64,000 nt of DNA from Sipunculus nudus (lineage: Eukaryota > Annelida > Sipuncula > Golfingiida > Sipunculidae). Shown piece after piece: positions 39,138 through 64,000 of this stretch (position 1 is its first letter; every line of letters begins with the position of its first letter). The stretch is taken from NCBI GenBank assembly GCA_026874595.1, contig CM049312.1, positions 76,354,929-76,418,928 on the forward strand. The letters are read 5' to 3'. A program made the position numbers and the translations under genes. Under the pieces are notes generated by a model that was not told the DNA's origin, searched no databases, and was given only the letters and a program-made list of their open reading frames with translations.

Positions 39138-39140
<3 letters not shown>

Positions 39141-39186: not shown

Positions 39187-39188
<2 letters not shown>

Positions 39189-39891: not shown

Positions 39892-39946
<55 letters not shown>

Positions 39947-42260: not shown

Positions 42261-43479
42261 ATAATACTATTAAACTGAAAAGTCAAATGCAGCTAGTAAA
42301 TGAAATATTACATTGTTCATTTGTATTTACTGTATTCTCAACAAGCCACATAAGCTGTGCGAAAAGAAAAAAATGCACCAAATACAGATTCAAATTTTCT
42401 GAAGATAAGACATGCAAGGTAAACAAAAATTCTATGAAAATAATACATTCAAATGCTGACATCTTAAAAAAATCATTGCAGATAACACATGCATCAGTGA
42501 CATGTTCAGGTACCAAAGTCTCTATATAAGCAGTCTCAGTGCTTGGCACTTATTGTCTCTGTTGCTGAAACAGAAATCTCTCCTTGATATTTATAGAGAG
42601 AACATGCCCATCAGATTACTGGAACACCAATTCTTCTCCATCTCACGCAGAGGTTGGACACCTTCTGTCACCCATCATTCAGAAAGTATCAGTTCGCAGC
42701 TCAGCACATCCCACTTCTGACACCATGCCATAACCTTGTTACCGTGGTTCGTAGTACATGAATAAGGTACAGCAGTGCTGAGTTACATTATACATACTTT
42801 TTTTTATTTTAGTTCTGGGTTTTAAACAAATTACTAGTATAATGTACACCAAAAGTACAGAAGCAATAGGTAAAGGTGGCCGACATCGTGGCTGGAATGG
42901 CTTTGTTTAAACATAAATGTGATATACAGGTATAAAAACGGTAGAGCCAATTAAAAAAGTGAGATAAGGTGCCTATCAATTATAGTTTCATTTATATTTA
43001 TATTTAGTAGTAAAGGTACAATATAAAAACAATAATGTGAATTGAGAAATACCCTGGGTAGCTTATCCCTAAGCTGAATTTCCATAAACAGCCTTCTCAT
43101 ATTGATATGCACATCTCTAGTCTATATCAATCTAAGGGAAACGAGGTACAATAAATTTAAATATATAAACATGACAACATTTAAACACCAGCATATTATT
43201 TCATACAATAAATAATACTGGTATTCTAAGAAAGTAAGATTAAAATAAAAAACCACGTACCATGAATCCAGTACTTCTTGACAGGGAAGAGCATCAACAC
43301 CGGAATGAAGACACAACTGATCCATGCTGAACTCGCCCATAAGATGCCTAGCTGGTAACCACAAGGTGTAGAAACATCACCATGAAAGCTCCAACTGCTT
43401 CTCGACACAACAATTTATAGATGCCCGGCTGGCGGCAAAATTCGTCTACCCATGAGCCTGGGTTAACAGAAGGGGAGGA
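42261..43479. other. intergenic region before the Gypsy element
   Basis: Only short ORFs on both strands without recognised domains. The 5' LTR of the adjoining Gypsy element should lie here if it were complete, but no LTR boundary could be recognised. Confidence 0.4.
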
Positions 43480-43484
43480 ATTAT

Positions 43485-44107
43485 GAATTAGCGATGGAAA
43501 CACTTGAAGGACATTTCGGACCTTGTAAACAATCTGTAGTTGTCGCCAGGTATAAGTTCCACCAACGTAATCAATTGCCAACAGAAACAATAGAAGACTA
43601 TTTGATAGTGTTACGTTAAATGGTAGTGCCATGTGACTTTCCTGTAGATGTAAAAGAAGAAATTATTAGGGACCGTGTTATTCAAGGAGCTAGTGACAAA
43701 TGGCTCCAAGAACGTATGTTGACAGAGAAAGAATTTTTAAAAGTTTTTTAAAGAACTTGATGGCTGTAGCTCGCCACTTACAGCAAACTGCAAAAGATTG
43801 AGAAGTGATTCAAACAAGAAACATAAACACAGATGGTGTACAATACGTACAATCAAATGTAAGTGGAGCCAGTGGCTCGTATGTATCTCATGTACAACAG
43901 GCACTTAGTCACAGAGGTTTGCATTCAGAGAAAAACTGTTTTCGTTGTGGTTTATCCAAGCATTTAGCCAGTGACCCTGCAGGTAAAGCTCGTCAAGCCA
44001 GTTGCTTTAGGTGTAATAAGAAAGTATATTTTGAATCTCAGTGTCACAAAAACCGTAGAGGAACAGGGCATCACCAGAGAAATCAGGACAGAACGGTACT
44101 ATGGTAA
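43485..44107 (+). pseudogene. Gypsy-type gag remnant with zinc knuckles
   Basis: The frame around 43490-43800 reads as capsid: YKFHQRNQLPTETIEDYL, then after a stop DVKEEIIRDRVIQGASDKWL and a RMLTEKE helix. The next frame (43805-44107) has two knuckle-like motifs, CFRCGLSKHLASDPA and CFRCNKKVYFESQC. The first lacks the final Cys and the second has Tyr-Phe where Gly-His is usual. Stops and frameshifts interrupt it. It is the N-terminal part of the element continuing to 47.7 kb. Confidence 0.8.
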
Positions 44108-44363
44108 CCTAAGATCTTAGCGTTATCCAGGGCCAGGACGATACCAAGACACCAGGGGACGAGGGCCAGGGAATAACTATGACAACCCCCGTCAGCGCGT
44201 TACCAAGAAACCAGGCGTCAGGGCGTTATCAAGGCGACAGTGAACCAGCGCAGTATCAAGACTTCAAGGGGCCACGGAGGTTGAGACAAATAACTGAAGA
44301 ATGGGTCAATACAGACAGTGAGGAAGAAACAAATACAAATGTATTTCAAAATGTGCAGGTTTT

Positions 44364-45211
44364 GTGGACCTCACTATTGATGAACTATTCTTTAAATTGC
44401 TGGTAGACACAATGAGTCCAAGGACTCTCCTTACAGAAAGTGGCTTTGTGAAATATTTTGAAGGGTATACATTGTTACCACCTAAGGTAAAATTGAGGTC
44501 CTTTTCAATGAATGAAAATAATGTACTGGACTGTTTTGAAGCAAATGTGTGTTACAAAGGTTTATCTCATGTAATGTACATACATGTTGAAACCGGAATT
44601 TCTTGGGTTGGCATGAACTTGGGTAATGCATTGGGTGTCAATCACTACAGGCTAATCACCCCCAGTAGTACTAGAGAGATTGATTTACCACTTGAACTCC
44701 AGGAGTTTGGTGAGCTGTTTACACCAAAATTAGGATGTGCTAAAGGGCTTTGTACACCAGGTAAGAGTCAAGGATGATGTTGTACAAGTACAGACTAAAT
44801 TAAGGCCCCTACCATCCTCAATTCGTGAGTCTGTGTCTCAGGAATTGAGAAGATTAGAAACAGAGGGAATTAATGAGAGGGTAGATACAACTACATGGAT
44901 CTCTCCCTTAGCTGAAGCCCGGAAAAAAGTCTGGAAATATCAGGTTATGAGTTGATTTGAGGGAGGTAAATAAGGCCATAATTCCCAGTAAATTCCCACT
45001 TCCATTTGTTGATGAAGTGTTAGGGGAGCTGCGTTGGGGCTTAACTTTTTGCCAAGTAAGATTTGGCGGCAGCGTATCTTCAGGAGCCCCTGCACGAGAG
45101 CAGTCGAGACTTGACGGCTTTCATCACACGAGGGAGTGTTTCGTTTTACCAGGGTTTGTTTCGGGCTTACGTCAGCACCAACAGCCTTCCGACAAATGAG
45201 GAGTTTTATCC
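44364..45211 (+). pseudogene. Gypsy-type protease and RT N-terminal half, decayed
   Basis: Protease-like LLVDTMSPRTLL (44400 region; retropepsin DTG changed to DTM) is followed by FGELFTPKLGCAKG and, in a second frame, RPLPSSIRESVSQELRRLE and WISPLAEARKK (RT palm entry). After a stop, DLREVNKAIIPSKFPLPFVDE follows. The motif containing the first RT Asp has lost its frame (FCQVRFGG where F-S-K-I-D-L is usual). The fragment is cut at 45211 by an inserted transposon and resumes at 46944. Confidence 0.82.
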
Positions 45212-45271
45212 TTAAGGGGTGTTTCCATGTGCACGTATATGCGTGAAAAATCGCTCATATGATTTTGTAAC

Positions 45272-46837
45272 TACCGTAGATCCGCGTTTTGCCGCCGCGG
45301 CCATAAAATAAGACTTACAGCCGAAAATCCCGACTAATATTTATCGACAAGGGATGCGGCTATAAAACGCAGGTTAGGCTGAATTCAAACATGTACAAGA
45401 GACTCGACGGCCCGCCGAGGGCCAATGGTCGATAATAGGCTGAGGAAGAAGTGAATACTGGGAACGTATATTTAATGATACTGCATATTTGTATATTAAT
45501 TTTATTGATTATTAATTTTATAAAATGTAAAATTGATATTTTAAACATGCTTATATGTATTATAAAACTTTTCTGAGTCAGTCATAAACCACGGCAATTT
45601 TCACGCAATGATTGATTAAAGATCGATATTCACTCGCCAAATTATGCATTCTATCCAGACTAACGGTTGTTCCTATATTTGAGTATGGCTGCAATATCGG
45701 TAAAACATTATTTTAAGATATTTCTTGAACATATCATTTCTTTTAAAATAAACTGTAAAACAAAAGATAACCAAAGACAATACGTTCTTCGGCAATTAAA
45801 CCTGCGTTCACGTTCAGATACTTCTTCGTTCATCAAATTGTCAATAGATGGCGCTCAAAGGTCATAACCTCACCAGCTAGTTCCGTAATCTTTAAATATG
45901 GCACGTTTTGCTAGCAGACGGTTCGGGCACCAGTGTGCATATATTATGATCAGCAGGACCCTGGGTGTACGCGTAAAGGCTCGAAGCGGGATTCGCTTAT
46001 TAAAAGGTTTTGTCAAGGTTGTTAATTGACCGACGTTGTATAGAGTGTAAATAAAAGCCATCATAAAGAGCACCGTTGGCTTTGATGTCCCATTGCAGTT
46101 TAATTAGACAGGGTAAAGGCGCAAGGTACACCAAGGCCCGCAAGTTCCGTAATCATTTTCTGTTGCATCATTTGCCGGTTGACGGTTCGGACACCATTTT
46201 GCATATATTATGATCAGCACAACCCGAGGTGTTCTGGAAATATGATCACCGACGCGGGTGTCGTTTATTGAAATGTTTTGTTGTTAAATGACCGACGATG
46301 TATAATGTCTAAATAATGTTTAAATTACAGTCGTCCCATACAATGCTTTGATGTTCCATTGAACTTTAATAAGTCAAGTTTAAGGCGCAAGATTCTCCGG
46401 CATTCAGTGATGTGTCAAATTAATTTCGTGGCCCTACTAGGATTCGTCTTGGATGAGTCGTCATAAACCGAACAAATTGTCATCTATTCTAATCAGGTAG
46501 ATCAGGCGGTTTAACAAATTAATAAAATTAATTAATAAGCAAAGCCAAGCAACATACACAGTTGCAACTGTTTCCCAAAACTGTTATGCCTGACCACATA
46601 TCAGCATACCGCAGCATATCTAGGGCAGCCTAGCGTTTAAGAAATGAACCTTTTTTCGTTGTGTTCCCAAAACTTCCCATACCCCACCCGGCAATGGAAC
46701 GTGGTGAGAATGTGGTGCGGCCATTAAGTAAGGTTTTGGGAATTTTTTACTCCAGTGAAGGAGCCTTCCAGATATTTACGAACATGGGGTGCGGCCATTA
46801 GACGACGTGCGGCGGCAAAACGCGGATCTACGGTAGG
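45272..46837. mobile_element. inner inverted-repeat element nested in the 45215-46940 transposon
   Basis: CTACCGTAGATCCGCGTTTT and the following GCCGCCGC near 45272 are perfectly mirrored by GCGGCGGC plus AAAACGCGGATCTACGGTAG ending at about 46837. Both ends also carry a further GCGGC(T/C)AT(A/T)A-type motif inward. No target duplication is obvious. It could be a separate MITE or the subterminal part of the outer element. Confidence 0.6.
45879..46410. repeat. two-unit tandem repeat, period about 264 bp
   Basis: AGTTCCGTAATC begins at 45879 and 46143. Both units then carry GACGGTTCGG, GCATATATTATGATCAGCA, TGACCGACG and GGCGCAAG-like segments in the same order. It lies inside the nested transposon. 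Confidence 0.75.
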
Positions 46838-46943
46838 TTGTTTTCATGTGTCCGTCAGCGTATATGCGTATGTGCGTATATGTGTAAAAATAGCCACAGG
46901 AGCGATTTTCACGCAATAACGTGCACATGGGAACATTCCTTTA

Positions 46944-47730
46944 TTTGGATAAAAGAGTACAGTGTTACCTTAATGATCTGATTATTTATTGGAACACCAA
47001 GGGAAGAATATCAGTGCAACCTAGAAGCCGTTCTTGGCAAACTGCGTCGGGCAGTCTCAAGCTCAATGAAAAATGTCAGTTTAATATGAAGTCTATATCT
47101 GGGTCATCTGGTTACAACTGAAGGTATAAAACCGTTACCGTCACCGGCTATAGTAGTCCTAGGAGCACCAGCCCCTAATGATAGAGACACACTTCTTTCT
47201 TTTCTTGGACTGGTGGGATATTATTCCAAGTTCTGTCCTGATTATGCCACCATGGTATAACCAAAGCGTGCATGATTGAGGGGGATGAACCGTTTCAGTG
47301 GACTGAAGAGGCACAGGTCAGTTTGATAGGGTGAACCCATAATTGGTAAAAGTATGACCTTAGCCCTGTTTGATCCAGACAATGATACAGTAGTTACAAC
47401 GGATGCTAGTGGTTATGGTATTTCAGGGGTACTCAGTCAGTTTAAAGATTGGCAGGAATTCATAGTTGCAAGTGCATCCAGAACCGTGTCAGAACAGGAG
47501 CGTAAGTACTCTGTTGGGGAACGAGGGGCATTAGCACGTGTGTGGGCATGTGAACACTGGTTAATTATTTGTGGGGACGACGGGTCACACTTCGTACTGA
47601 CCATCGTGCATAGACAACATAGTTAACCAGTAAAGGAAAGGGTAGACAACCGATGAGAATAGCAAAGTGAAATGCTTGGCTGTTATGGTTTAACTACACC
47701 ATTTAGTATCGTCCATGAAGTTCTCGGTAA
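46944..47730 (+). pseudogene. Gypsy-type RT C-terminal part and RNase H, decayed
   Basis: It resumes after the nested transposon with RVQCYLNDLIIY (YLDD box changed to YLND, about 46948-46986), then LKLNEKCQF and, in a new frame, LLSFLGLVGYYSKFCPDYA. The RNase H domain is at 47354-47626: VVTTDASGYGISGVLSQ, SRTVSEQERKYSVGERGAL, VWACEHW. Beyond the stop, remnants of GRQPMRIARW and a FNYTI-like strand follow to about 47730. No integrase was recognised. Confidence 0.83.
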
Positions 47731-48933
47731 CTGAATTGTGTGAAAAAATATCCTGAATAGTTGTGAAGATTTGTTATGCAGTGTTGCTTATTGGCCACCT
47801 GGGTTAGGGACAAAAAAAGAAAATATATAAAAATGTTATAATTGTGCAGATTTGTATGAGGTTGCTTTCAAGGCCCAATGTATTGAGGACAGTTGGAAAC
47901 ACCTACACCTGAACATGTTTGTAATTGTGGTATATTCCTAAAATTAAAAAAAGTAATTGGATGTTATTTTGTGTAAGAGAAAAATAAAGCTGGACAGTGG
48001 AAAATGAGGGACACTAATATTTGTGCATATAAGGGTATGGTGTATATTGAACAAAGGAAAACTGTGAAAATGATGGACACGTATTGTTCGTTGGAAAAAA
48101 ATATAAACATACTGAAAATTTTTACATAGATTTGGAAAAATAGGGAGGATAAACGAGGCGCGTTGGCTAGGGAAAAAAAGAATTTCCAAGATAAAGGTAT
48201 AATTGTATATAGATCATTTGAAACAGTGAAAGAGGAAGATAGAATGATGGATAAAGATTAAAGATCGACCTAATTAAGAAATGCGATCTATGAGACTGGA
48301 ATAAGTTAATTTATAAAACATCGAGTAATGTTTTAAACGTGTACTCAGAGAGAATAGTGAAATTGAACAATAGTGAAACCGATTATTTTAAATCTTTGTG
48401 ATGTCAAGTGCATTTTGTTTTAGAATATTTATGGATTTTATGTGGATGTGAATTTAAATATTATTAGTATTGTCAAGAAACAGTATATAGAATAAAATGC
48501 ATTGAGAAAGCTGATTTTATAGCCTGACTTTGATATAAGTACTGTTTACATACTTGCAAAGATGGTAAAATTTTAATAGGGTTTAATATAGTGTTATAAT
48601 GGCCACATGGACCTTTATTGGACTGAGTATACTATTTTGATTATTAGGCTTGCGATTTTGGATAATTATAAAGTTTTGTAATAGTTGATTAATCAGTTCT
48701 TAAGAAGTGAGAGGGATATGTGTCGTGTCTTAAAGTGTAATATCTATAAATTTATGTTAGTGGAAATTACTTAGGTCCAGGTTACTGTAATGTTGAGACA
48801 TCTGGCAAATTGTTAAGGTACTAAATGGAGTGAAAAAGTGTCTGAAAAAGTGGCCATATTGTCTCCTCCGGTAACATGGGTCTGGTAGTCTCCTCCTTTA
48901 AATCTGCTTCCATCCTGGGAAAGAATACTATAA
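47731..48933. other. AT-rich region between two Gypsy fragments, possible LTR/leader
   Basis: No ORF of interest. It lies between the RNase H end of one Gypsy fragment and a gag start of another on the same strand, so it may hold 3' LTR or 5' leader sequence. LTR termini could not be defined. The stretch AATGGCGACGAGGACG at 48934 immediately starts the second gag. Confidence 0.4.
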
Positions 48934-49240
48934 ATGGCGACGAGGACGTTTGCAGTGGGCCAAACACCAGCTTTTCTTGAACCTCCTCGTGATTTTGTCT
49001 GTGAGTGGAGGCAATGGAAGAAAATATTTGAGAACTTTATGGTCGCGTCAGATGCCTTAACTTTCGAACCCACGCGGAAGAAAGCCATCTTGCTTCATAG
49101 TATAAGAACAGACGGACAACGTATCTAATAATCCCTAAGGACACCAACAGTTCTCAAAGGTGAGAAAAGTGAAACTGAAACTATAAAACATGATGTTTAT
49201 GAATTAGCGTTGGAAACACCTATAGGAAAGAATACAATAT
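48934..49240 (+). pseudogene. second Gypsy-type gag N-terminal fragment
   Basis: A 64-aa frame with FLEPPRDFVCEWRQWKKIFE and KKAILLHSIRTDGQRI, a typical Gypsy (Mag-like) gag N-terminus. At 49200 it continues in another frame with YELALETPIG, matching YELAMETLEG at the start of the first gag (43485), so the two fragments are of one family and overlap only briefly. It is broken after that. Short basic frames to 49621 may be further debris. Confidence 0.72.
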
Positions 49241-50912
49241 ATTGACACATGATGAACATTACGTGAAACGAAAGAAAATACGTTTATTTTACTTAGGAAA
49301 TACCATCCAGAAGTTATCTCTTCTTATTCTTCTCCAAATCCGCAAGAATCTACAGCGTCCCGGCGAGATTTCGTGCAGCGAGACCATCATCAAGATATTT
49401 ACCTTATAAGGAATACCGTTAGGAATCCGGGAAATCTGACCGTAAATAAACCCCGAAAATATCACTGCGCTTGGCATTTGACTGACGATATGAAAAAATG
49501 TCATACTGCTACATCTGGAAAGAACAAACTAGTGCTGAGGATACATACTGAAGGAAATGTAATCCACGGTCCGGCTTTGCGTGGCATCCGAAGCATAGGC
49601 TGCCCGAATGACAACGCGTAAAAGTAGTCCCTATATACTAATTAACACTGCCGACAAAAGCGATGGCGAAAATCCAAGTAATTTAAAAATATATATAATA
49701 TGGATAAATGATAAATATGGCCGGAAGGAATGATTAAAATTTGTAGAAACCTCAGTCGAAATATCCCAAGTGGATCTACCAATTCCACGCATGGATGACG
49801 CGCTAGTTAAACCAGGCTGCAAGGGGGTCTCGCATAATCATTCCACCGATCGGCCAAACAACACAATTCCGAATTGTATTAACCTACAGTGAGATAAGGT
49901 GCGTGTTGATCAATTAATTATTTCGCTCATCGCTAGCGCCGGTGAAAGCGAAATACATGAATTATCTGTTCGTTCCGAAATAATTAAGGTTCATTTACCG
50001 GCCGGTACTGATAGGGCTATAGAGCCAAGCTCCGAGCAAGACAAATTTAACAAATTTTTTCAATAATATTTTTATCATGTGACAGTTGAGGGTAAATTTT
50101 ACCTCCTGCACATTCTGGTCTTTGGTCCATGACTGCCGAGGTCGTCTTATGTGCATGAAGGCCCTCGTAAAAAAAGTATGAATTCTTGCGACGTGTTGTT
50201 TAGTATATAGCAAGGGGCAAGGGAAAAGGCTGATTATCACATGTGGAACCCCGATGACGGTTTTTGTGCATGCGCAGTGGAGAACTTAAAAGTGTGATAA
50301 ATTGACAACTAATCAGTTTCCGAGATCTCTCTTCCTTCTGTATATGAAAGAAAACACTATTAGGTATACATGAGATACTTAAAATGCATGTGCGGTGCTA
50401 TATTAATGCTATATGGTTCTTCAACCATGTAAGGTCATATACAGAAAAGGAATGCTCTTGCGCCGAAATTGGTATCACTCAGAATTTACAGAAGACGATA
50501 AAAGCGGTCTTTACCAATCGGCAATTGCGGTCCGCTATGCGTTGCACCCTACTTAAAAACGACTTTGTGGTTAATATCTCCATTAAGTGTCATGAGAGTT
50601 ATTAGAACTATATAGCCATGGATCAAAGAACAATCGCAGAATTTTTATTTTTAGTCAATTAAATCTGAGGATGGATCTTAATGCAAAGTCAGGCACTGGC
50701 AAAAATATGCGCTCTTCGAGTGTCCTGGTATAAAATATATATCCATTTGAAGTGTAATTGAGTCCAGTCAAAATTATTGTGATTTATATTAATTATGATT
50801 GAACGCATAATTAGATAACTGCATATACCGTTGACGGATCACATCTGAAGATTGGAAAGGCATGAAAACATGCACGTGTTAATGCGAAACTGAACATTTT
50901 CATAAATAATCA

Positions 50913-50915
<3 letters not shown>

Positions 50916-50969
<54 letters not shown>
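50916..50969. repeat. (TA)n microsatellite
   Basis: About 26 TA units. Confidence 0.95.
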
Positions 50970-50971
<2 letters not shown>

Positions 50972-51072
50972 CACTGTCCATGACCATCAGTGTAGTGTTT
51001 TTTTAGTAGTTATATTGATAATAGGGAATTGCCTCACCTGCAAGGAAACTATTTATTAACTGAACATGCTGA

Positions 51073-51139
<67 letters not shown>

Positions 51140-51150
51140 AAGAGAGAGAG
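51073..51150. repeat. compound (TA)n(GA)n microsatellite
   Basis: TA units to 51099 then GA units with a few AAAG interruptions. Confidence 0.95.
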
Positions 51151-51360
51151 GATTATCCTACAATTAAGGATATAACAAACACATAAACAAAGTATCTCAT
51201 TGCACATTCAATGACGATCGAATATTTGATATGTTGTAAATTTTTTTTTTTATGGAGGTTTTTTCTATTTTTAATGCTGACTTATCTAAGTGTGTACATC
51301 TGCAGAGTTTCCATTTCGGTTTGGGACTACTTGACAGGGCGGTAGCACTCGCTTCCTATC

Positions 51361-51652
51361 ATTTTTATTTTGTATCCTGGTGTCACCCAGGCCCGGTGTC
51401 TACCGCACCTGCGGGTCCTTGATGTGTAATCATCCCCATCGCTGAGTCAAAACACCGAGGAACCCCCCCAAAAAAAGACGCACTCGTATGTGGGTGACAC
51501 ACGGCTGTGGGGCACATCCTTCCCATTAAGCCTGCAGAGCGCTCACCCTGGGTGGGGGCCGACCGTGAAAAACCTCACCGCCTCGGCTGAGATTCGAACG
51601 AACGATCTCCCGGCTTTGAGTCCCGCGCTCTACCCCTGAGCCACAGAGGCAT
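51361..51652 (-). mobile_element. tRNA-derived SINE, copy 2
   Basis: On the minus strand the head reads GTGGCTCAGGGGTAGAGC (A box) and GTTCGAATCTC (B box), then CACCCAGGGTGAGCGCTCTG, GACCCGCAGGTGCGG and a tail ACACCAGGATACAAAATA. It is better preserved than copy 1 at 5741-6010, with the same body and tail. A C-run expansion lies mid-body near 51465. Confidence 0.82.
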
Positions 51653-51839
51653 GTTGTAAATGTAGCTTTTAGTATTATTATTGTCTCCTTGTACATGGCA
51701 GTAAGTTGCTAGGAGTTCTGCATAGATCGAAAACTGCAATTATGTACCCAACATACCAATTTACTGTAAACAACTGACTGATTAATGACATATTTGTAAT
51801 TATAAACACATAAATTTTGAATATGATAAAAATTCGCAA

Positions 51840-52440
51840 GACAAAATTTCTCAAATTAGTCACAGAGGCACCGCTGGTGTCTCGAACCTGTCCCGGACTA
51901 TCCCGAAGTCGATTTCTGCGAATCAGGAAGTGCGAGAACTGCGAGATACCTTTGTGAGGGGTTCGCAACCTATGCAACTACATTGCGAATATTTCGAGAT
52001 AACAATGAGAATCTGACATTCTGGGCGCGAATTGTCGTGCGAATATTTCACAAATGTTGTGCGAATGTCCTGTAAACATCGCAAAAAATTCGCGCGACGG
52101 GTACACGAATTCCAGCCGGATTTTGGGCCAAACACTCGTGCGATGTACGCAAACGTATCGTAAGTTAACATTGTCGTTAAATCGCGCATTTTCTCCAAAT
52201 TGTCGTGTCTCTAACTGCTCTAACTAGTCGCAAGCTGTCCATGCCCAGTAAGATACAGCCCAAAGCCATATACTCATTAAATACGTGAACACTGACACAC
52301 GCTCGTGGAGGCGGGCGTGGCTTCAGTGACAGGGAACAGTCATCAGATGTATTTCGCTCATTCTCTACAAGAGCAATAGAGGTTTTCCATTTAACCGCGG
52401 TCCGCTTGGGCGTCAAGACGGACCTAACAGTCCTTTGGAC
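51840..52440. other. unclassified region rich in TGCGAAT/TTCGCA motifs
   Basis: From 51880 to 52190 the sequence repeatedly uses short variants of GCGAAT, TTCGCA and GCGAGA in both orientations, reminiscent of transposon subterminal repeats. Short minus-strand ORFs (to 52416) have no recognised domain. Termini not found. Confidence 0.35.
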
Positions 52441-52639
52441 TTGTGCCCCTGGTTGGGCTTAAAGTATACTGCAATTGGACTATTCAATGTTTACATGATT
52501 TTGCATGTTTTTGTTGTTTCTTTTGCATTTATGTAAGATTTATCATTCATTTATATGATACCCCTGGCTCGACATTCAGATGCTTGGATAAATATTAATG
52601 CCAGTGAGAACTTATTTGATTTGGTTACTAATCGTGTAC

Positions 52640-53694
52640 CTTTAGCTTCAGTGAAACCTAGTCTTGTTTTAGGTTACCAAATTATCTGATTCACGGTTTT
52701 GGTTCGGGTGCTTGTATTGAGGCTTTAAATGATGAAGCTTCAGGACAATGGAATACCCGAGTCGCCTACATGCCTTCAAACTACAGGGAGCTTCTTGCCA
52801 TTGGACTGGCTCTGAGGTCATTTGGACCCGAACTCCAGGGGAAATCTGTTCAAATCTTGCATATGTCAACCTTTTGTACAGTCCAAGTCAGGAATTAGGG
52901 GACTTAGTTCAAAAAGTTTGGCTAGAAGCTCATGCATGTGACTAAATCTAAAGGCCAAATACCTCGCTGGAAAACAGAACCGCCGGGTTGATTTGTTGAG
53001 CTGAAATTTGTCCCCATACGAATGGAAACTAAACATACATTTATTCCGTTTTCTGGACTTAATGTTGGAGCCTCACACCATCGACCGGTATGCTTCAATG
53101 AAGACAGCGCAACTACCCCGTTACAACAGTCTGTATCACGACCCCCTCTCGTCCTGTATAGATGCATTGGCTCACAATTGGATGGGCGAAAACAGTTTTG
53201 TCAATCCGTCGTTTTGCCTCATTCCAGAGGTTCTAAATCTAATCGCATCTCAAAAGGTGGAGGCAGACCTGATAGCCTCTTGCTGGCTAGCACAACCTTG
53301 GTTTCATCAGATAGTGCAAATATGTCATCGGTCCCACCGATCCAGATTCCTAACAACCGGCAGTCAATTTGGCATTTTGACATTTGTCCAGAGCCACTAA
53401 GAAGTGGAGACTATTTTTACCTAACCAAATGACAACAAATCACGTAATCGTGATCAGCACAAATTTTGTTACGGAGATTAAAAACAATCAGCGTAAAATG
53501 TCTAGGGGAATGAAAAAAGAAGTTAGTGTTTTTTTGTTCATAAATAATTATAGTTTATTCTTAGAATAATCCTAACATTAAAATACACTAAATCAATACA
53601 ATTACACAATATAACAATAAAATGTACATCATCAGAGTTTCCGGATCCTTGGCTTTGATTTCTGGATACCACCACTGCCACAGCCCAACCAGAG
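52640..53694 (+). pseudogene. DIRS/Ngaro-like RNase H region, decayed
   Basis: The frame near 52725-52870 reads DEASGQWNTRVAYM, NYRELLAIGLALRSFG and LQGKSVQIL, the RNase H of DIRS-type retroelements. After frameshifts come KAKYLAGKQNRRVDLLS, YEWKLNIHLFRFLDLM, PHTIDRYASMKTAQLPRYNS, DALAHNWMGENSFVNPSF and QKVEADLIASCWLAQPWF, which is the segment following RNase H in such elements. Stops separate the pieces. The preceding RT domain is not recognised. The 3' part repeats at 53705-54473. Confidence 0.78.
52928..53694. repeat. tandem duplication, unit 1 (about 767 bp)
   Basis: It begins GCTCATGCATGTGACTAAAT and ends AGCCCAACCAGAG. It is nearly identical to 53705-54473 at an offset of 777-779 bp, with 10 bp between units. 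It covers the DIRS/Ngaro RNase H tail plus about 300 bp of non-coding sequence. Confidence 0.92.
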
Positions 53695-53704
53695 TCCCAA
53701 CCAA

Positions 53705-54473
53705 GCTCATACATGGGACTAAATCTATAGGCCAAATACCTCGCTGGAAAACAGAACCGCCACGTTGATTTGTTGAGCAGAAATTTTTCCCCATACGAAT
53801 GGAAACTAAACATACATTTATTCCGTTTTCTGGACTTAATGTTGGAGCCTCACACCATCGACCGGTATGCTTCAATGAAGACAGCGCAACTACCCCGTTA
53901 CAACAGTCTGTATCACGACCCCCTCTCGTCCGGTATAGATGCATTGGCTCACAATTTGATGGGCGAAAACAGTTTTGTCAATCCGTCGTTTTGCCTCATT
54001 CCAGGGTTCCAGAAATCTAATCGCATCTCAAAAGGTGGAGGCAGACCTGATAGCATCTTGCTGGCCAGCACAACCTTGGTTTCATCAGATAGTGCAATTA
54101 TGTCATCAGTCCCACCGATCCAGATTCCAAACAACCCGCAGTCAATTTGGCATTTTGACATTTTATCCAGAGCCACTAAGAAGTGGAGACTATTGTTACC
54201 TAACCAAATGACAACAAATCACCTAATCGTGATCAGCACAAATTTTGTTACGGAGATTAAAAAAAATCAGCGTAAAATGTCTAGGGGAATGAATAAAGAA
54301 GTCAGTGGATTTTTGTTCATAAATAATTAAAGTTTATTCTTAGAATAATCCTAACATTAAAATACACTAAATCAATACAATTACACAATATAACAATAAA
54401 ATGTACATCATCAGAGTGTCCGGATCCTAGGCGTTGATTTCTGGATACCACCACTGCCACAGCCCAACCAGAG
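53705..54473. repeat. tandem duplication, unit 2 (about 769 bp)
   Basis: Second copy of the unit at 52928-53694. The plus-strand frame 53770-54330 is a fragment of the same element region; minus-strand frames across both units are shadows. Substitutions and a few single-base indels distinguish the units. Confidence 0.92.
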
Positions 54474-54959
54474 GCCTTTAACACCAATAATCCACGCAAA
54501 TAGTAATAATCAAAAGGCAAACTGAAGACAGTCCGTATTACATCTGTATTAAGTCCGTTGAATATCTGACATCATGTACCACTGCAATTATCGGACAAGG
54601 TCCCAAAATGATGAGGAAGTAACAATGTTATTGCTCGCTGGTATTTTCCTTTCTGCCGGCTCTAAACACAGCCCCTAATTCATAGCTTCTCACCCGAAAA
54701 TTGTAGAAATGGAAAATTCCAAAGAACAATACACACGCACATGAACAGACCCGAAACATTTAGAACAAAAAAGAACGCTGTGTCTCTACGCTTCAGACCC
54801 CACACGAGAGCCAGCGCCCAACAAGCGAGGTTCCCATAGCAACGAACTATGCCTGCGCTACACGAATCAGAATGTCAACAGACACATGTAACACTGCTGC
54901 GCACAATAAAACAGATACCTGTAACACTATACACGTGGAGAATTTCTGACGGTTAATTC
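54474..54959. other. non-coding segment between duplication and recombinase fragment
   Basis: No ORF or recognised repeat. Base composition is less AT-rich than the surroundings. Confidence 0.4.
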
Positions 54960-55202
54960 TTGGTGCTCAGGGTTGGAGTGATAGAGCACAACAACAATTT
55001 CCATGTAACTGGGCTTGGTAAAATTCTTGAGCAATTAATTAACATGGCAGGTTTAGGGGGTAGGAGTTTTACTGCAAAATGTTTTAGACCTTCTGGAGCA
55101 AAGACTGCCGTTGAGGCTAATTTTAACCCAGACTCCGTTCGGAAAGTTGGCAGGTGGAAATCCCAGGAGGTGTTTGAGCAGCATTATGTGCATTCTCAGT
55201 AG
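54960..55202 (+). pseudogene. tyrosine recombinase C-terminal fragment (DIRS/Ngaro-like)
   Basis: An 80-aa frame with SFTAKCFRPSGAKTAVEA, where the Arg stands in the recombinase R-x-x-x-A motif, then VRKVGRWKS and the nucleophile region EQHYVHSQ ending in the conserved Tyr context. N-terminal recombinase regions are absent. It follows the RNase H remnants on the same strand, in the order of DIRS-superfamily elements, so it is probably part of the same element. Confidence 0.72.
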
Positions 55203-55273
55203 GCCAATAACTTCACAGATTAGGTGTTTCGAAGGTAATTATGTTTTAGCATATCTTTTCTCTCTTAATTAGG

Positions 55274-55557
55274 TATATTTGCTTCAGTGTTTTGTTGTTA
55301 AGGCGTGATATACATTAGTCTGTAACCCGAACCAATATTAAATGACAGGTCCCTGTCACTGGGTGGTGACATCTATATGTCGCCACCCAAACTATTCTCC
55401 ACTTGGTGTCGGTTGAGTGATAATTTTATTGATGGTGGATTATTATTGAGAATGAGAACAAATTTGCCATAAGCTATGCTGTGGTGGATGGTACCAAGTT
55501 CGGAAGAATAAAGGCATATTTACTTCAGTTGTTTGTTGTTTAGGTGTGATAAAAATT
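55274..55557. repeat. pair of about 43-bp direct repeats flanking a 28-bp hairpin
   Basis: TATTTGCTTCAGTGTTTTGT and its continuation through GGCGTGATA begin near 55275. A close variant begins near 55515. Between them, 55361-55388 forms a 12-bp-stem hairpin (GGGTGGTGACAT / ATGTCGCCACCC, loop CTAT). Such repeats downstream of the recombinase match the split direct repeats of Ngaro-type elements. Confidence 0.6.
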
Positions 55558-55850
55558 TGTTAAAATCGCGAATACTTAACTATTAACATTCTTTTTTCAA
55601 GAAAGAATCTTACCCACATTTCACCAGTATATTTGTATGTAAAAATCCGTTTCTTGTAACGATTAATTGATCTTTATATGTGTAAGCTGCTGTTTTTTTT
55701 TGTATTCCAAATTAACCTTAATTTGGATATATCCGTACTTCTTTTTTTTGTGATGTGCGTGTATATACAAGTGTGTTTTATATGTACACATTAAATTGTA
55801 TTTCAAGGATTTTTTTCCTGGTCTATGTATTTTTAATTATAAAATGTTGG
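55558..55850. other. AT-rich spacer before the L1-like element
   Basis: No ORF. The 5' boundary of the L1-like element is placed near 55850, where a GC-richer leader (GGCTCTTCCGGTTCCGG) begins. No target duplication was found. Confidence 0.35.
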
Positions 55851-55971
55851 CTCTTCCGGTTCCGGTATGGGAGGCGTGTAGACTGTGGTGTGCAGAGCGC
55901 TCGGGGAAAAGTGAAATATTAAGAGCCTTTGACACTTGAAAGACCTTTCATACACAAATATTGAGTTAGAA

Positions 55972-56868
55972 ATGCCACCACGACGGAATAAGCCAAGCGT
56001 GAAAGAAACTGAACCAGAGACAAGTTTAGAAAAGTACTTAACAAGAGAGAGAGGTGATATGGAGGACAGTCAGAGAGGTCAGGATATATTACCTGGTGCC
56101 CAGGGAGTGACGACCCACGTCGAGGCACAGATAAAAATGTTGGAGGTTACTCTGATGAAAGCAATTGAGGCTACAAAAGTAAGTCTATTACAAGAACTGA
56201 CCACAGAAATAAATAACATTAAAGATAAAACAAATACCCAGTCAACAGATATATCTGATTTGAAACAAAGTGTTCAATTCTCACAGGAGAGTTCAGATAA
56301 GCAAGGCAAAGATGTGGATTGGTTAAAACAGGAAAACACAGAGCTTAAAAGAGATATTGAGTGTTTAAAGACAGATAAGAGAAATTTGGAGAAGAGAGTA
56401 GATGATTTGGAGGAGAAAATTTGGAAAAAAATAAATGAAATGGAACGTTATAGTAGAGAATATAATATTCGGGTGATAGGTCCAGTGGAACATGACGGCG
56501 AAGACTGTGTCAATTTGGTGGCGCAGGTGCTCGTGAACAATAGTTTGGTTCCACAAAAGTCTGTCAATGACGCTGAAAAGCTCATTGAACATGCCCATAG
56601 AACGGGTCCGAAAACTGGCAGTGGAAACAGGCAGATTATTGCACGAATGTATTGCAGGCCGGTGAGGAACGCGATAGTGAAAGAGGCTAAGAAGAAGCTC
56701 GCAGGTGCGTCAAGTGCGGTAAAGGTGTTTGAAGACCTCACCTTTGAAGACTATAAGCTAAAGAAAAGAGCGAAGAAACAGTTGACGGCGGCCTACCATG
56801 ACAAAAAGAAAGGACGGTTTTGGAGGGGAAAGCTTATTATTGAGGGACAGACAGTTCCGATTGAATAA
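55972..56868 (+). CDS. L1-like ORF1 protein, coiled-coil RNA-binding chaperone
   Basis: 298 residues from the first ATG (an in-frame TTG lies 36 nt upstream). A charged N-terminus is followed by a long coiled coil (about residues 45-150, heptad-like LKRDIECLKTD, LEKRVDDLEEKI), then the RRM-like core with ERYSREYNIRVIG, AHRTG and RQIIARMYCRPVRNAIV, and a basic C-terminal domain ending LIIEGQTVPIE. The layout is that of L1 ORF1p (Transposase_22 family), which forms trimers, binds its own RNA and acts as a nucleic-acid chaperone in the ribonucleoprotein. No disabling change is seen. Confidence 0.9.
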   Translation: MPPRRNKPSVKETEPETSLEKYLTRERGDMEDSQRGQDILPGAQGVTTHVEAQIKMLEVTLMKAIEATKVSLLQELTTEINNIKDKTNTQSTDISDLKQSVQFSQESSDKQGKDVDWLKQENTELKRDIECLKTDKRNLEKRVDDLEEKIWKKINEMERYSREYNIRVIGPVEHDGEDCVNLVAQVLVNNSLVPQKSVNDAEKLIEHAHRTGPKTGSGNRQIIARMYCRPVRNAIVKEAKKKLAGASSAVKVFEDLTFEDYKLKKRAKKQLTAAYHDKKKGRFWRGKLIIEGQTVPIE

Positions 56869-57203
56869 AATTTGGACGTGTGTACTCAATTAATGAACTC
56901 AAATGGTGGATATCAAATGGTATGGTGGATATGGCTGTAAAATGTTGAAAGCAGGATTTGTAAGTTTAATTTTAACATTTTTCTTAAATATTATCCCATA
57001 TTAAATTAGAAAAATGAAAACAGATCTGTTTTTTTTTTTTGTGTATGGGTAAAAGGGATATATTGTTGGTTTAAACGAGGCTTAGTTAATACGGAGCGTT
57101 GAAGTAACACACAACAGGTAAGAACAAGGGAAGTAACAGGTATAGGTGTTTTGTTTATCTGTGTGATGAGTAAGATTATCTGTATTACTTTTGCATTGTC
57201 GAA

Positions 57204-60200
57204 ATGAATACTATTAAGCTTTTCAGTTTTAATGTTAGAGGATTGGCTGCGCCATTGAAAAGAAGAGAGATATTTTATTGGCTTAATCAAAGTGAGCACA
57301 GTGTTATTTTATTGCAAGAAACACATAGTAGTCCTAATGATTGCAACATGTGGAAGGCTGAGTGGGGAGGCAGAATTTATTTTTCTCACGGCACTAGAAA
57401 TTCTAAGGGAGTGTGTATTCTAATTAAAAATAATTTTGAATACCTGGTACATCGGTGTCATACAGATAAGAACGGTAGATACATAATACTTGATGTAGAA
57501 TCGGATGACTGCAGAATAACGTTAGCAAATATATATGGCCCGAATACGGATGATCCTGATTTTTTCTTAGAGTTAAGACATAAAATTGAAGTTGTTTCAA
57601 GTGATAAATGCGTAATAGGGGGAGCTTTTAATGTAGTGATGAATAATGATATGGATAGAATAGGGGGAGGAAATTATAATGCAAAGGCACAACGTGTGCT
57701 TTTGGATTGGTGTTGCGATTGGGGACTTGTTGATATATGGCGTAAAATGAACCCTGCAACGAAACAGTTTACTTGGCAAAGACAAAATCCTTTCAGAATG
57801 GGGTCTCGTTTAGATTATATAATGGTTTCAGAGTGTTTAGTCCAAAATGTTAGGAATGTTGAAATAGTGACAGGATATAAAAGTGACCATGACGCAGTAA
57901 AATTAGAATTACAGGTTGCAGATTATAAGCGAGGAAAGGGCTTTTGGAAATTAAATGTCTCTTTAATGGAAGATGAGGGATATATAAATCTTATTCAAGA
58001 AACAATAGAACGAACAGAGAAAGAAAACCAAAATGCTTCAGCGGACGTTGTTTGGGAAATGATTAAGTGTAATTGTAGAGGTGTTACAATTAGGTTCAGT
58101 AGTGAAAAGAAAAGAAAACAAGTTAAAGAATTAGAGGTCCTTGAAAAAAGATTAAATGAATTGCAACATACGGAAACGGAAAAGAAAGATGCGGAAAATT
58201 TAATCGAATCTGAGGATAGACAGTCAAATATTTGTAAAATAAAAAGGGAGTTAGGTAAACTGATTGAGAATAAAACTAAAGGAGCAATGACAAGGAGTAA
58301 GGTAAGGTGGCTGGAAGAGGGTGATAAACCAACAAAATATTTTCTTAATTTAGAAAAACGAAATTTTAATAAAAAATGTATACATATGTTGAAGGAGAGT
58401 AATGGAAACATTATTAAAAATCCAAAGGACATATTGAAAACACTAAGCAAATTCTATATGAGTCTATATACATCTGAAGGGGCGAAAAAGAGTTCTATGG
58501 ATTTTTTCAGTAGTATAAAATTGAAGAAAGCTTTAAATGCATGTGAAAAAAGAGATTTAGAAGGGCAGATTACGGAGAGTGAAATTTACAATGTGCCCAA
58601 ATCGTTTAAGAGAAATAAATCGCCTGGGACAGATGGTTTTTCAGCGGAGTTTTATCTAAAATTTTGGCCTCACTTGAAGGAAACATATTTGAAGATGATT
58701 AAAGAGTCTCTTGAAATAGGGAGGCTACCTTTGTCTACAAGACAAGGCATAATTACGGTAATCCCGAAAATTGGGAAAGACAAGCTCTATGTAAAGAACT
58801 GGCGACCTATATCGCTGCTTAACATAGATTACAAAATTATCGCAAAAACAATAGCGAATAGGTTGAAAAAATACCTCGCAAATCTAATTGACAGTGATCA
58901 AACAGGTTTTATGCCGAACAGATTTATAGGGGAAGGAATAAATAAATTAATGATAATATTAGATTTATTAAAGGAAAAAAGAGAAAAAGCTTTTTTTGTT
59001 TCAATAGATTTTGAAAAAGCATATGATTTTTTAGAACATTCATTTATATGGAAAACGTTAGAATCTTTCAATTTTGGTCCTAAAATGTTAAAATGGATAA
59101 AAATGATGTATAAAGACATAACTTCTTGTGTGATAAATCGGGGAAATTTCTCAGAATTTTTTAAAATATCAAGAGGTGTTCGACAGGGATGTCCCTTATC
59201 CCCATACTTGTTTATCCTCTGCGCAGAAACTTTGGCACAAAAAATAAGAGATTCCGGAGATGTTAGAGGTTTTAAATTAATAGAAAGGGATATAACATTA
59301 GTGCAATATGCCGACGACACCACGTTAATTTTATCAAATGTGGAATCAGTCAAATCTGTTTTAGATATATTTTCTGATTTTCAAAAATGTTCAGGCCTGA
59401 GGATAAATAAGGAAAAGACTGAGGTCTTGTCCGTAAATTGTAACATATATGAAAAGGAGAGAATTCAAGAACTGGGATTGAAAACCATAAATGGTCCTCT
59501 AAAGATGTTAGGAATAAAACTATTTGAAAAAATAGAAGAGACTATTAAAATAAATTATGAATCTGTAATGCTTAAAATAAAAGAGGCTATAATGAAATGG
59601 ACGAGGAGAAATATGACCTTGAAAGGGAAGATAGTTATTTTAAAATCAGATATTATATCACAGTTGACATACTTAATGTCCGTCATTCCAAGTCCAAGCG
59701 AAAGTTACATAAAAGAATTGAATAAGATTTTATACTCGTTTATATGGAATAACGGTCCTGAGCAAATAAAGAGGAGAATTTTAATAGCTCCCATAGTGAA
59801 GGGAGGTCTGGCAATGACCGATATCTCGACTTTGAATGAGTCACTTAAGACATCCTGGGTGAAACGTTTAATTGTTAAGGAAAGAAATGATAAATGGAGA
59901 CAACTTGTTCAAGAATTATTTAAGATAAATGTAGAATATTTATTTCGATGTAATATTAAAAAAGAACATTGTCGCTTAGTAATGAAGGTTGACAATATCT
60001 TTTGGACAAATGTGTTACAAAGTTGGACTGACTTAAATTTTAAGGAACCAATGTCTAAATTTGAATTTGCGGAGCAAAATATATGGTTTAACTCCTGTAT
60101 AAAGATGAGTAGAGAACGTGGTCTTATTAATTTGATGTATAGTAGAGGTATTAGACAAGTTAAAGATCTGATCCAGGAGGGTTCAGATAACTATGAAGTT

Positions 60201-60974
60201 TTAACATTTCAAAGGTTTAAGTTCAAGTATACGGTGGGTATTGATTATTTAACATATCACAGAATTGCAAGTGCCATTTCAATGAGAATGAAACTACTGT
60301 GTGTAAGATCCGAGGTACAAGAGGAAGAAAGTAAAGGTGTCTCTTTACAAATATTGAGGAATCTGAGGAAAGCAACTAGATACATTTATGATATTCTAAT
60401 TCAAAGACAATATGAAACTCCTGAACGAGTGTGTAAAAAATGGGCACTTGATGTAAACGAAGTATCAGTAGAAAGGGTCCTGAATGCATTTAGCGAATTA
60501 TACAGGAATACTATCGATACAAAAATAAGAATGTTTCAGTATAGAATTTTACACAGGTGTTTAAAATTGAATCCGCTTTTGGAAAAAATGGGAATAAAAA
60601 GTAATGATAAATGTACATTTTGCAAGACAGAAAAAGAGACAATCTATCACATTATGTGGGAATGCACACATGTAGACAAATTATGGAAGGATATCACAAA
60701 ATATTGTTTAGAAAAAGGATGTAAAATAGTACCTTTATCACTGAGTAATGTTATATTTAATGATGCCTCAGCAGTTTTAGAAAATTCTATAGTACTGGTA
60801 ATAAAAAGATATATCTATGTGTGTAGATGCAAAGAGGAGTTGCCGGTTGTACAAAGGGCAATAGAATTCATTAAACATGTGCATGTTTTTGAGAAAATAG
60901 TCTCTAAAAATAGAGGAAAATTGGAAGAGCATAAAAAGAAATGGATGCAATTTGGAGAGTTTTTAGAGAATTAA
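57204..60974 (+). CDS. L1/Tx1-like ORF2 protein: endonuclease, reverse transcriptase, C-terminal zinc knuckle
   Basis: 1256 residues, uninterrupted. AP-type endonuclease, residues 1-240: SFNVRGL, QETHS (Glu39), NIYGPN (Tyr111), SRLDYI (Asp204) and SDHDAVKLEL (His229). The expected GGDFN is GGAFN, with Ala141 replacing the catalytic Asp. RT, about residues 465-760: KSPGTDGFSAEFY, NWRPISLLN, FVSIDFEKAYD (Asp602), GVRQGCPLSPYLF and QYADDTTLIL (Asp704, Asp705) all intact. A C-terminal CTFCKTEKETIYHIMWEC motif is the L1/Tx1 Cys-His knuckle. It would copy the element's RNA at nicked chromosomal DNA in the nucleus. With an Ala at residue 141, nicking activity is doubtful. Confidence 0.93.
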   Translation: MNTIKLFSFNVRGLAAPLKRREIFYWLNQSEHSVILLQETHSSPNDCNMWKAEWGGRIYFSHGTRNSKGVCILIKNNFEYLVHRCHTDKNGRYIILDVESDDCRITLANIYGPNTDDPDFFLELRHKIEVVSSDKCVIGGAFNVVMNNDMDRIGGGNYNAKAQRVLLDWCCDWGLVDIWRKMNPATKQFTWQRQNPFRMGSRLDYIMVSECLVQNVRNVEIVTGYKSDHDAVKLELQVADYKRGKGFWKLNVSLMEDEGYINLIQETIERTEKENQNASADVVWEMIKCNCRGVTIRFSSEKKRKQVKELEVLEKRLNELQHTETEKKDAENLIESEDRQSNICKIKRELGKLIENKTKGAMTRSKVRWLEEGDKPTKYFLNLEKRNFNKKCIHMLKESNGNIIKNPKDILKTLSKFYMSLYTSEGAKKSSMDFFSSIKLKKALNACEKRDLEGQITESEIYNVPKSFKRNKSPGTDGFSAEFYLKFWPHLKETYLKMIKESLEIGRLPLSTRQGIITVIPKIGKDKLYVKNWRPISLLNIDYKIIAKTIANRLKKYLANLIDSDQTGFMPNRFIGEGINKLMIILDLLKEKREKAFFVSIDFEKAYDFLEHSFIWKTLESFNFGPKMLKWIKMMYKDITSCVINRGNFSEFFKISRGVRQGCPLSPYLFILCAETLAQKIRDSGDVRGFKLIERDITLVQYADDTTLILSNVESVKSVLDIFSDFQKCSGLRINKEKTEVLSVNCNIYEKERIQELGLKTINGPLKMLGIKLFEKIEETIKINYESVMLKIKEAIMKWTRRNMTLKGKIVILKSDIISQLTYLMSVIPSPSESYIKELNKILYSFIWNNGPEQIKRRILIAPIVKGGLAMTDISTLNESLKTSWVKRLIVKERNDKWRQLVQELFKINVEYLFRCNIKKEHCRLVMKVDNIFWTNVLQSWTDLNFKEPMSKFEFAEQNIWFNSCIKMSRERGLINLMYSRGIRQVKDLIQEGSDNYEVLTFQRFKFKYTVGIDYLTYHRIASAISMRMKLLCVRSEVQEEESKGVSLQILRNLRKATRYIYDILIQRQYETPERVCKKWALDVNEVSVERVLNAFSELYRNTIDTKIRMFQYRILHRCLKLNPLLEKMGIKSNDKCTFCKTEKETIYHIMWECTHVDKLWKDITKYCLEKGCKIVPLSLSNVIFNDASAVLENSIVLVIKRYIYVCRCKEELPVVQRAIEFIKHVHVFEKIVSKNRGKLEEHKKKWMQFGEFLEN

Positions 60975-61192
60975 AAAAAATTAGTAAATGAATATTTTTA
61001 TATTTTTTTTTTTTTTCAGATATCACGAAATGAAAGTTTTTATGTAAAATCTTGGTAAAAATCACACGGTGTTATTGAATGTGAATCTGTAACATTGTTT
61101 TGTGTTGTAATGTCTGTATTGTTTTGTTTTGTAATGTCTGTATTGATTTGTTCTGTAATAAAAAAAAAATAAAAAAAAAATAAAAAAAAAAA

Positions 61193-61640
61193 GATATATA
61201 TTGGTAAACTCTCTAGGTAGGTATGAAGGACGTGGGCTCACTGATAGGGCTTCAAGGTCTGGTGAACATATACTAGATTTGGCGGTTATATTCTGACACC
61301 ATCTGTTATTAACATAATGAGCTACACCACCGCCTCTTGATTTATTAAAGTCCTAGATTCTGTCTTGTCTTAATAGGGTAAAATTAGGAATGTTCAAGAA
61401 TGTTTCAGATATGTTTTGGTTCAGCCATTTTTCCGTAAATGCAATGCAACAAGCCTCTCGATATTGACAAAGAAATCGGCAGTTTGCACGGAGTTCGTCA
61501 ATCTTTGAGCTGAGTGAATGGACGTTACCAAATGTTATTGTGGGCACAAACGGTTTAGTACTGCATCTTCTTCTTAACCTGACTCTTGCCCCACCTCTCC
61601 TGACACGATACACATCAAAAGACAAAAACATGTCGGGCAC
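61193..61640 (-). pseudogene. Rex1-like LINE endonuclease fragment, copy 2
   Basis: Minus-strand frame with VYRVRRGGARVRLRRRC, VHSLSSKIDEL and AFTEKWLNQNISETFLN, matching copy 1 at 34787-35350. A CAG-to-TAG change after QDRI stops the frame near 61353. The fragment breaks off at the L1-like tail, so RT and the 3' end are missing. Confidence 0.82.
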
Positions 61641-64000
61641 GATGCAATATTATCTTTCCATGCAGCCGACCTTTGCTTTAAAAGTAGTTTGTTCCATTAA
61701 CAGTTTATACTAATGTATGCAGCATCTGTTTGGAGTCAATGATAAAGTACAATCTGCATTTGTCGTTAGATACGTATCTGCACATAATGCAACTGTAAAC
61801 AAGGCCAGTGTATAAGAATATATATTGGGTGATCCAGAAAAACCGTTCCGAACCTAATTTTATAAATACTGCATACAACTTGTTGGTATGTGAAAAGATG
61901 TGTATAATTTTAATATTTCTGTAATATTTTCTTAGTCCAGGATTCAAAAATCCTGATTTATGACAAGAATAAATTCGCATAGCTAGTGAAATTTGTAAAA
62001 TCTAATGCTGGGTACTGTTTGATGTCCCCGCCGTATTTTCTTTTATTTGTACTCTACTGATGAAAAGTTGGGAAGTAAAATCTCATGAATTCTGAAAAAA
62101 ATTAGGTTTCAAGTACAGCAGTGTACTTTAAACACTTTATGGACAAGCCTCTCCCACAGGGTATTTTTCACTTGCTAGATATGTAGGTAGACACAAGAAA
62201 GATTGTTGTCAGTAGTTAGATATAGTAAGCAGCCGTGTTCTGTGATCGGTCATATGTAATACCCATATATAAGGTAATTAAGTGATCTATCATGTACAAA
62301 TGTAATAGCCAATCAAACGCCTTCCTACTTGTCCTAAGAGTAATTATCCAATGACCCGTGGGTTAAAGGTCACGTGGGTCCACCTGAATTTACCCGTGAT
62401 TAAACATTAGTCAGTGCGGTCAGTTCAACCCTGACCTGCCAACAGACATCATTCACATTGATTTTCCACCACCTCCTCTCCTCCACCCAGCTTAAAATTT
62501 AGAGTAAAATTACACAAATTTGGTGGATATGCCCCCTTTTTGTCCCCACCTTCAGGGAATGTTACATATTGTAACAGGCATTGTTTTAAGCATTAAATAT
62601 ATATCACTTTGTCATGTGTAAGCTCTAGATCTGTATTGTGAAATGTGTTATTTATTTGTACTAAGTTATGTTTTAATGTCATCCGGGGGTGGCGCCATAC
62701 CACATTTTACACTAGTTTCCTGCTTATTCAAGAATCGGGCTGGTATTGAACATCAATCATGGACTTTAAAATGAACTCTTTCATAGCCCGAGTTACATAA
62801 TTAGTTAATATAGTTAGATGGCGTCACCCCCATTTATTGTGTCATTAATAAATGATAAATTGGCTGCCAGGTTTTTGTTTCCCTGTGTGAGAGGCTGTGT
62901 GTATAAAATAATTTCACGGGTCGAGCGCCCAGCAGTTTTGCATTTCCGACCCAAAACGGCAAATTTTGACCGGTTACACAGATATTTAATGGTGTTGTAT
63001 ACGACAGACTGATATATAAGTAGATATAAAGGATGAATTATATGCATATTTTGAGACAGGAAAAATATTTTCAAAGCAAGTAACAGGGCTTTGCATACCT
63101 CGCTAACAACCAGGGCAGTGCGACGTGGCACTCTGCATGGGTGCACTTCATAAGTTCGTACCCTGCAACTTCGTCCCGATACAACATCGTATCATGTATT
63201 TGTTTATGTTTGTAAGACTTAAACAAATAATCTTACATATATTTAGAGGCTAAAAAAACAAATGCTAAATCAAACATTCATAAAAGGCACCAGAGTGACA
63301 TCTGCTTGGATCAGGGATTAGGGGTACGAAATGTCTTGAATTTGTACTGTGAATTCCGGGCTTACTTGGAGGAAGTTCGGTTGTTTTCCGTGGTAACTGT
63401 AAGAACCTCTTTCATAAACACGCAACCGACAACAAAGTGTAGTGTCTAAGAATCCTTAATGTGTCACTGTGCGGAGGGTGACTGGACTCATTGTTTCAAT
63501 GCGTATTGTGCTTGATATATCATAAACATTTACCTCATACAGACCAAACAGACTCATTAATTAGGGCCTTGACAAAGTCCATTTTCTGAGAAACCGAACG
63601 TTGCCGACTTTGATACTTGGCGTTTTCAGCTCTCTGCTGCAGCTTGTCCTCCATAAGTCATAGTAGCCGCGTTCATACAAAAAATCTCAAATAGTGGTTG
63701 CCATATATCCAATACATTCTTAAAGGTAGGGGATTATGTATCACGCACATTATTAACGGAAGGCCTCATAAAAATTATGAAACTGTGACGCAAACATTTC
63801 TGGTCTATTGTGATCATCCGTGAACACGCGTTGATATATGCACTGCGCTTGTTTCGTCTACTACCCGTTACAAATTAGGGATATAATACAATGGTTTGCG
63901 GCCGACCCACCGCTGCGGCTGACCAGGCAGTATTTACTCTGAACTTAGTGGTTGCATAATTGAGGTTCAGGTCGCCCGTTGGGACGCAAAAAGGTGGTCG
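61193..64000. repeat. long direct repeat, copy 2 (truncated Rex1-like LINE 5' half)
   Basis: Same orientation as 34911-37733 and nearly identical; it runs off the window end. Its left edge coincides with the A-rich tail of the L1-like element. Confidence 0.88.

Follow-up and report, generated by a model that had tools for sequence, protein, structure and literature searches.

A private Asp-to-Ala change in the endonuclease of a young L1 element that lies between two diverged direct repeats in an assembly of Sipunculus nudus

Introduction

Human LINE-1 (8sxt, 1vyb, 7n8s) is the closest described relative of the element reported here. Asp145 of its endonuclease is described as essential and proposed to be the general base, and the D145A substitution serves there to abolish cleavage (PMC8565326). 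Other work has a D145A/H230A double mutant as its dead control (PMC12809410). Changes at catalytic residues also occur naturally, as in a report on human L1 loci in which one of 134 carried a change at D205 (PMC4837594). L1 activity can also rearrange large pieces of DNA: a 22.6 Mb tandem duplication made by an L1 in a tumour has been documented and attributed to a sister-chromatid bridge (PMC7058536). Repeated arms at haplotype-like divergence can also be an assembly product, the false heterotype duplication, described as common in heterozygous assemblies (PMC8081667).

The locus examined here resembles each of these systems in part. With human LINE-1 it shares two open reading frames, the order endonuclease, reverse transcriptase (RT), zinc-binding domain, the YADD motif and an A-rich tail. 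Unlike human LINE-1, it lacks the general-base Asp, the residue replaced by Ala on purpose in the work cited above (PMC8565326), and its first ORF has no Pfam hit over the cutoff. As in the natural human case, a single full-length copy has a changed catalytic residue, at the equivalent of D145 here rather than at D205 (PMC4837594). As in the tumour, a single L1 occupies the exact junction between two direct-repeat arms; however, the tumour case as described involves a short somatic L1 and a 22.6 Mb unit (PMC7058536), whereas the present element is full length and sits in a genome assembly, with a unit of 21–25 kb and arms that predate it. The arm divergence resembles that of a false heterotype duplication, but both edges of the repeat fall at the ends of a mobile element (PMC8081667).

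Results

A full-length L1-clade element with an open ORF2

The window analysed, a 64,000-nucleotide stretch of the S. nudus assembly, contains a full-length element on the forward strand at 55850..61191. Its 5' end was placed at 55850/55851, and four relatives (L032, L033, L034 and L035) start aligning at 55851–55854. ORF1 (55972..56868, +) encodes 298 amino acids counted from the ATG and gave only weak, coiled-coil-type Pfam matches, none over the cutoff. ORF2 (57204..60974, +) matches PF03372 (endonuclease), PF00078 (RT) and PF13966 (zf-RVT), with the AP-type endonuclease domain at 57204..57920 (+, about residues 1–239) and the RT catalytic YADD at 59307..59318 (+, residues 702–705). The 3' UTR carries 2.8 tandem copies of a 24-nt repeat (61094..61159, +), a repeat also seen in the 3' ends of several other copies, and is followed by an A-rich tail at 61157..61191 (+), made of 3.2 copies of (AATAAAAAAAA). 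The best solved relative of ORF2 is human LINE-1 ORF2p (8sxt, E 1.8e-129, residues 4–886). Judged by its AP-type endonuclease, its RT and the long similarity to L1 ORF2, the element is a non-LTR retrotransposon of the L1 clade.

A preliminary description of this DNA had proposed that ORF2 is open over 1256 codons and that GCT, encoding Ala, replaces the codon of a catalytic Asp at 57624..57626 (+). Translation confirmed both: the frame has no internal stop, codon 141 is GCT, and the motif beginning at residue 139 reads GGAFN. The other residues that it had listed as intact (Glu39, Tyr111, Asp204, His229 and the RT YADD) are all present in the translation. Its equation of the site with human L1 Asp145 also held, as phmmer aligns Ala141 to position 145 of the human L1 endonuclease; query residue 106 is paired with chain residue 110 and the alignment is gap-free in between. 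The catalytic endonuclease Asp of the L1 clade (human D145) is thus absent from this copy, and because D145A stops cleavage in human L1, the endonuclease of this copy is expected to be dead.

The change is private to this copy

We searched the host assembly (1.43 Gb, 153 contigs) with the endonuclease and obtained 145 matches, for which residue 141 was read in 30 cut loci and in L041. All ten other family loci that were cut (L002–L011) have Asp at this position, as does L041, the eleventh other family copy, so that Asp is kept in 11 of 11. Asp was also found in 18 of the 19 cut loci from other L1 families of this genome, the exception being L021 with His. When the assembly was scanned for the codon in its family context, the Ala-type pattern occurred at one place, this copy, and the Asp-type at eight. 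Asp141 to Ala is a private point mutation of this copy, a statement we make with near certainty.

The preliminary description had left two options, a very recent dead copy or a family that moves by an endonuclease-independent route, and had proposed alignment with other genomic copies to separate them; in this genome, that alignment shows a private mutation. A family-wide loss of the endonuclease with endonuclease-independent spread is suggested by the Ala of this copy alone, and it is contradicted by the Asp in all 11 other family copies read, by the Asp in 18 of 19 loci from other L1 families (His in L021) and by how the family inserts. We examined 15 other loci (L031–L041 and L047–L050), counted L040 and L041 as one insertion and set aside L034, L037, L039 and L050, whose ends are rearranged. 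Among the ten insertions with readable ends, eight (L032, L033 by eye, L035, L036, L040 = L041, L047, L048 and L049) have target-site duplications of about 10–18 bp. The duplication starts with AA in seven of the eight, and the longest match in the remaining one, L049, starts with TAAAA. The two misses are L038, for which no target duplication was found, and L031, whose target lies within an A-run. Because short target duplications accompany eight of ten of these insertions, we conclude that the family inserts by an ordinary endonuclease nick and target-primed reverse transcription, and we give family-wide endonuclease loss practically no credence.

The L040/L041 pair (G000:C12) is itself of note: one 5'-truncated L1 insertion with the same target duplication occurs at two sites separated by about 71 kb, and over the 8 kb compared, which include the L1, the two agree at 98%. 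The pair represents either another large duplication or a haplotype that was retained.

Compared with the other L1 families listed for this genome, the endonuclease region of the element shows 39–48% identity. One such family (L015–L019), at 46% identity in this region, is represented on four contigs by five loci with 1269-aa open frames and equal scores, and looks recently active. L1 endonuclease matches also recur at even spacing, about 11.8 kb apart at G000:C2:94232953, 94244720 and 94256480, and about 5.0 kb apart at G000:C17:53427727, 53432685 and 53437645, which suggests tandem arrays containing L1 sequences.

The copy is young and its changes look neutral

The 3'-end query is matched over most of its length, at 90% or more, in 19 places, this copy included, and three further stretches are short. 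When eight relatives were aligned with this copy, it showed 14 singletons in the 4,602 columns common to seven sequences. Its private substitutions number 13 over the whole element, and 12 before the tail once L047–L049 are added; the private-site alignments were made without L034, L037 and L039, and L047–L049 enter only the 12-site count. None of the private substitutions seen against the aligned copies falls in ORF1. The element is a young, full-length member of a low-copy L1-clade family.

ORF2 has nine private substitutions, eight replacement and one silent, with Asp141Ala among the eight, and under neutrality eight or more replacements are expected with a probability of 0.42. Since these changes fit an absence of selection, the Asp-to-Ala change is most simply read as decay after insertion. 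With 11 of 11 other copies keeping Asp, a single Ala-type site, 12–14 private substitutions and a neutral replacement-to-silent ratio, the option of a very recent dead copy is supported. All eight other copies that were checked differ from this one by one or more frameshifts in ORF2 (two of them were compared over partial coverage). The intact frame of this copy is therefore a mark of youth or chance rather than of competence. A random non-stop change in ORF2 has a 0.80% chance of altering one of 11 catalytic residues chosen for the calculation. The chance of a catalytic hit is 7% for nine substitutions and about 25% for 36, as would accumulate over four similar copies, and a change of this kind arising by chance is not surprising.

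Giant direct repeats meet exactly at the L1 ends

This copy has a complete A-tail and, instead of a short target duplication, direct repeats of 21–25 kb. Among the 14 direct-repeat families listed for 55000–61500 there is none that pairs both ends of the element, and inspection of its junction sequences also revealed no short duplication. The left arm, R, is 20,933 bp long (34917..55849, +); its right edge is the 5' end of the L1 and its left edge is an uninterrupted site, GACTGTT|AGATATATATTGG. The right arm, R', starts directly after the L1 tail, occupies the remainder of the window (61192..64000, +) and, when traced with 40 kb more of the chromosome, is colinear to 86142 (loci L042–L044). 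R' spans 24,951 bp in total (61192–86142), its final 22 kb lying outside the window; the repeat stops at the point that corresponds to the 5' end of the L1, and past this right edge R' runs on into different sequence. In a self-comparison of the window, 61192 to the window end repeats 34917–37730 at 97.3%. R and R' are colinear apart from segments that only one of the arms contains, and a portion of the right flank was unreadable; in the assembly, both repeat edges coincide exactly with the L1 ends.

The two arms have diverged far more than the element between them. Counting substitutions only, and leaving out indels and pieces found in one arm only, the left and middle blocks differ at 320 of 13,394 positions (2.39%) and the last blocks before the L1 at 199 of 1,971 (10.1%). 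Had the arms arisen together with the L1, the left and middle blocks should show no more than 81.5 differences, a figure derived from twice the private change of the L1 under an assumption of equal rates; 320 were counted. Because the arm differences far exceed what the private change of the L1 allows, we conclude that the arms were already diverged when the L1 joined them. Most simply, two already diverged versions would be the two parental haplotypes.

Several further features lie in or near the left arm. The remains of another dispersed non-LTR element (33389–35419, –), perhaps CR1-like, contain the left site and match 38 further places. A 775-bp direct tandem duplication with 96% identity lies inside the left arm (52926–54476), and a stretch just left of the L1 (54960–55202) resembles by eye the end of a tyrosine-recombinase element, with no Pfam hit. 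Outside the arms, four colinear matches of 71–88% identity between 1900–7123 and 26466–30531 mark an older duplication. Pfam searches of eight window ORFs gave only a short-chain dehydrogenase match (30141–30743), also outside the arms.

ORF2 was also compared with sequences outside the host genome. In viral contigs, two stretches matched the pattern in a search for close relatives and neither encoded one. The protein search of phages gave one distant match, in an unannotated record. The same search of plasmids gave 26 records; in the 20 listed, the matched stretch is annotated as an RT (of a group II intron or another type) or as exonuclease III, or is unannotated.

How one L1 may have come to lie between two diverged arms

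The tumour duplication offers a ready model, but a bridge between sister chromatids would leave identical arms, and so it does not fit arms that differ at 320 positions where at most 81.5 would be expected. We instead propose that a single L1 bridged two homologues. The L1 cDNA would have been initiated on one homologue, at the left site, and its 5' end would have joined a break 21 kb downstream on the other, with the tandem duplication R-L1-R' as the outcome. We put this forward tentatively as the likeliest route, at a little under an even chance. Routes with two insertions, 21 kb apart on two haplotypes and brought together by an exchange or by an assembly join, would give the same picture, and jointly these also come close to an even chance.

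The assembly join supposes that the two haplotypes carry separate L1s in the same orientation, one at the left and one at the right site, and that the assembler crossed from one to the other through the shared L1 sequence. The arm divergence of 2.4–10%, far above the private change of the L1, is as such an origin would have it; false heterotype duplication is frequent in heterozygous assemblies (PMC8081667), and the L040/L041 pair, a family insertion found in duplicate at a distance of about 71 kb, may count for it. By eye, an AA-starting stretch just before the 5' end of the L1 could also be a short target duplication. However, with both edges at the ends of a mobile element, we reason that an assembly origin needs two insertions, which would have to lie in the same orientation within 21 kb and come from a family with 19 places in the genome. 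The left junction also lacks the AA start of seven of the eight other insertions. Nor was a third copy of the left site found among the 40 scored of 114 candidates: one was a full match (the window itself), one the half match of R', and 38 were dispersed-repeat matches ending at or before query position 1016. We regard this artefact as unlikely, though a serious candidate.

Real unequal crossing-over between L1s at both sites on different homologues would leave a hybrid L1 at the junction, with the same topology and arms of allele-like divergence, and LINE-LINE recombination is described as a known process (PMC4344489). It would require two nearby insertions plus a rare exchange, and no mosaic signal was detected in the element, where only four sites, too few for a good test, group this copy with less than a majority of the other copies. 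We consider such an exchange improbable.

The remaining explanation ties the giant repeats to the missing Asp: an RNA that already encoded Ala141 would have inserted independently of its endonuclease, at pre-existing breaks on two homologues, the odd site being a consequence of the dead endonuclease. This copy does combine three oddities (Ala, giant repeats and an AG start). The sole Ala copy is also the sole copy seen with giant repeats, the others having been viewed within the few kb fetched, and its 3' junction site, GTT|AGATAT, starts with AG vs. AA in seven of the eight other insertions and TAAAA in one. An ordinary nick at the 3' junction is not evident, a weak sign since the leading A's may come from the tail. 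Endonuclease-independent L1 insertions lack target duplications and often show 3' truncation or target deletion. This copy, however, is full length with a complete A-tail, and at its site there is a duplication, not a deletion. No other Ala copy turned up in the genome, and hence no visible parent, and Ala belongs to a set of nine private ORF2 changes whose ratio is neutral and which should for the most part have arisen after insertion. We therefore judge insertion from an Ala-encoding RNA to be very improbable.

Discussion

The account that emerges is of a young L1 from a conventionally inserting family, with a private Asp141Ala that most likely arose by decay after insertion, and which joined two pre-diverged arms, most likely by bridging. 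As a whole we consider it probable. Among the points against it, a divergence of 10% at the right end is high for alleles, and arms at allele-like divergence also fit a false heterotype duplication. The stronger statement, that a germline L1 bridged homologous chromosomes, that the arms are two ancestral alleles and that the locus is a base-resolved germline counterpart of the tumour sister-chromatid event, we offer as a possibility that we would at present rather doubt than assert. The literature search turned up no germline L1-bounded duplication with arms older than its element in the texts it reached, which is not a claim that none has been described.

The missing Asp is in itself ordinary decay and gives no ground for endonuclease-independent biology. 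Should the arrangement be an assembly join, it cautions against accepting L1-bounded tandem duplications from heterozygous genomes unless reads support them. If the duplication is real, the locus would be germline, base-resolution evidence of an L1 joining two homologues into a segmental duplication, and the age gap between the arms and the element would be a simple test, usable on other genomes.
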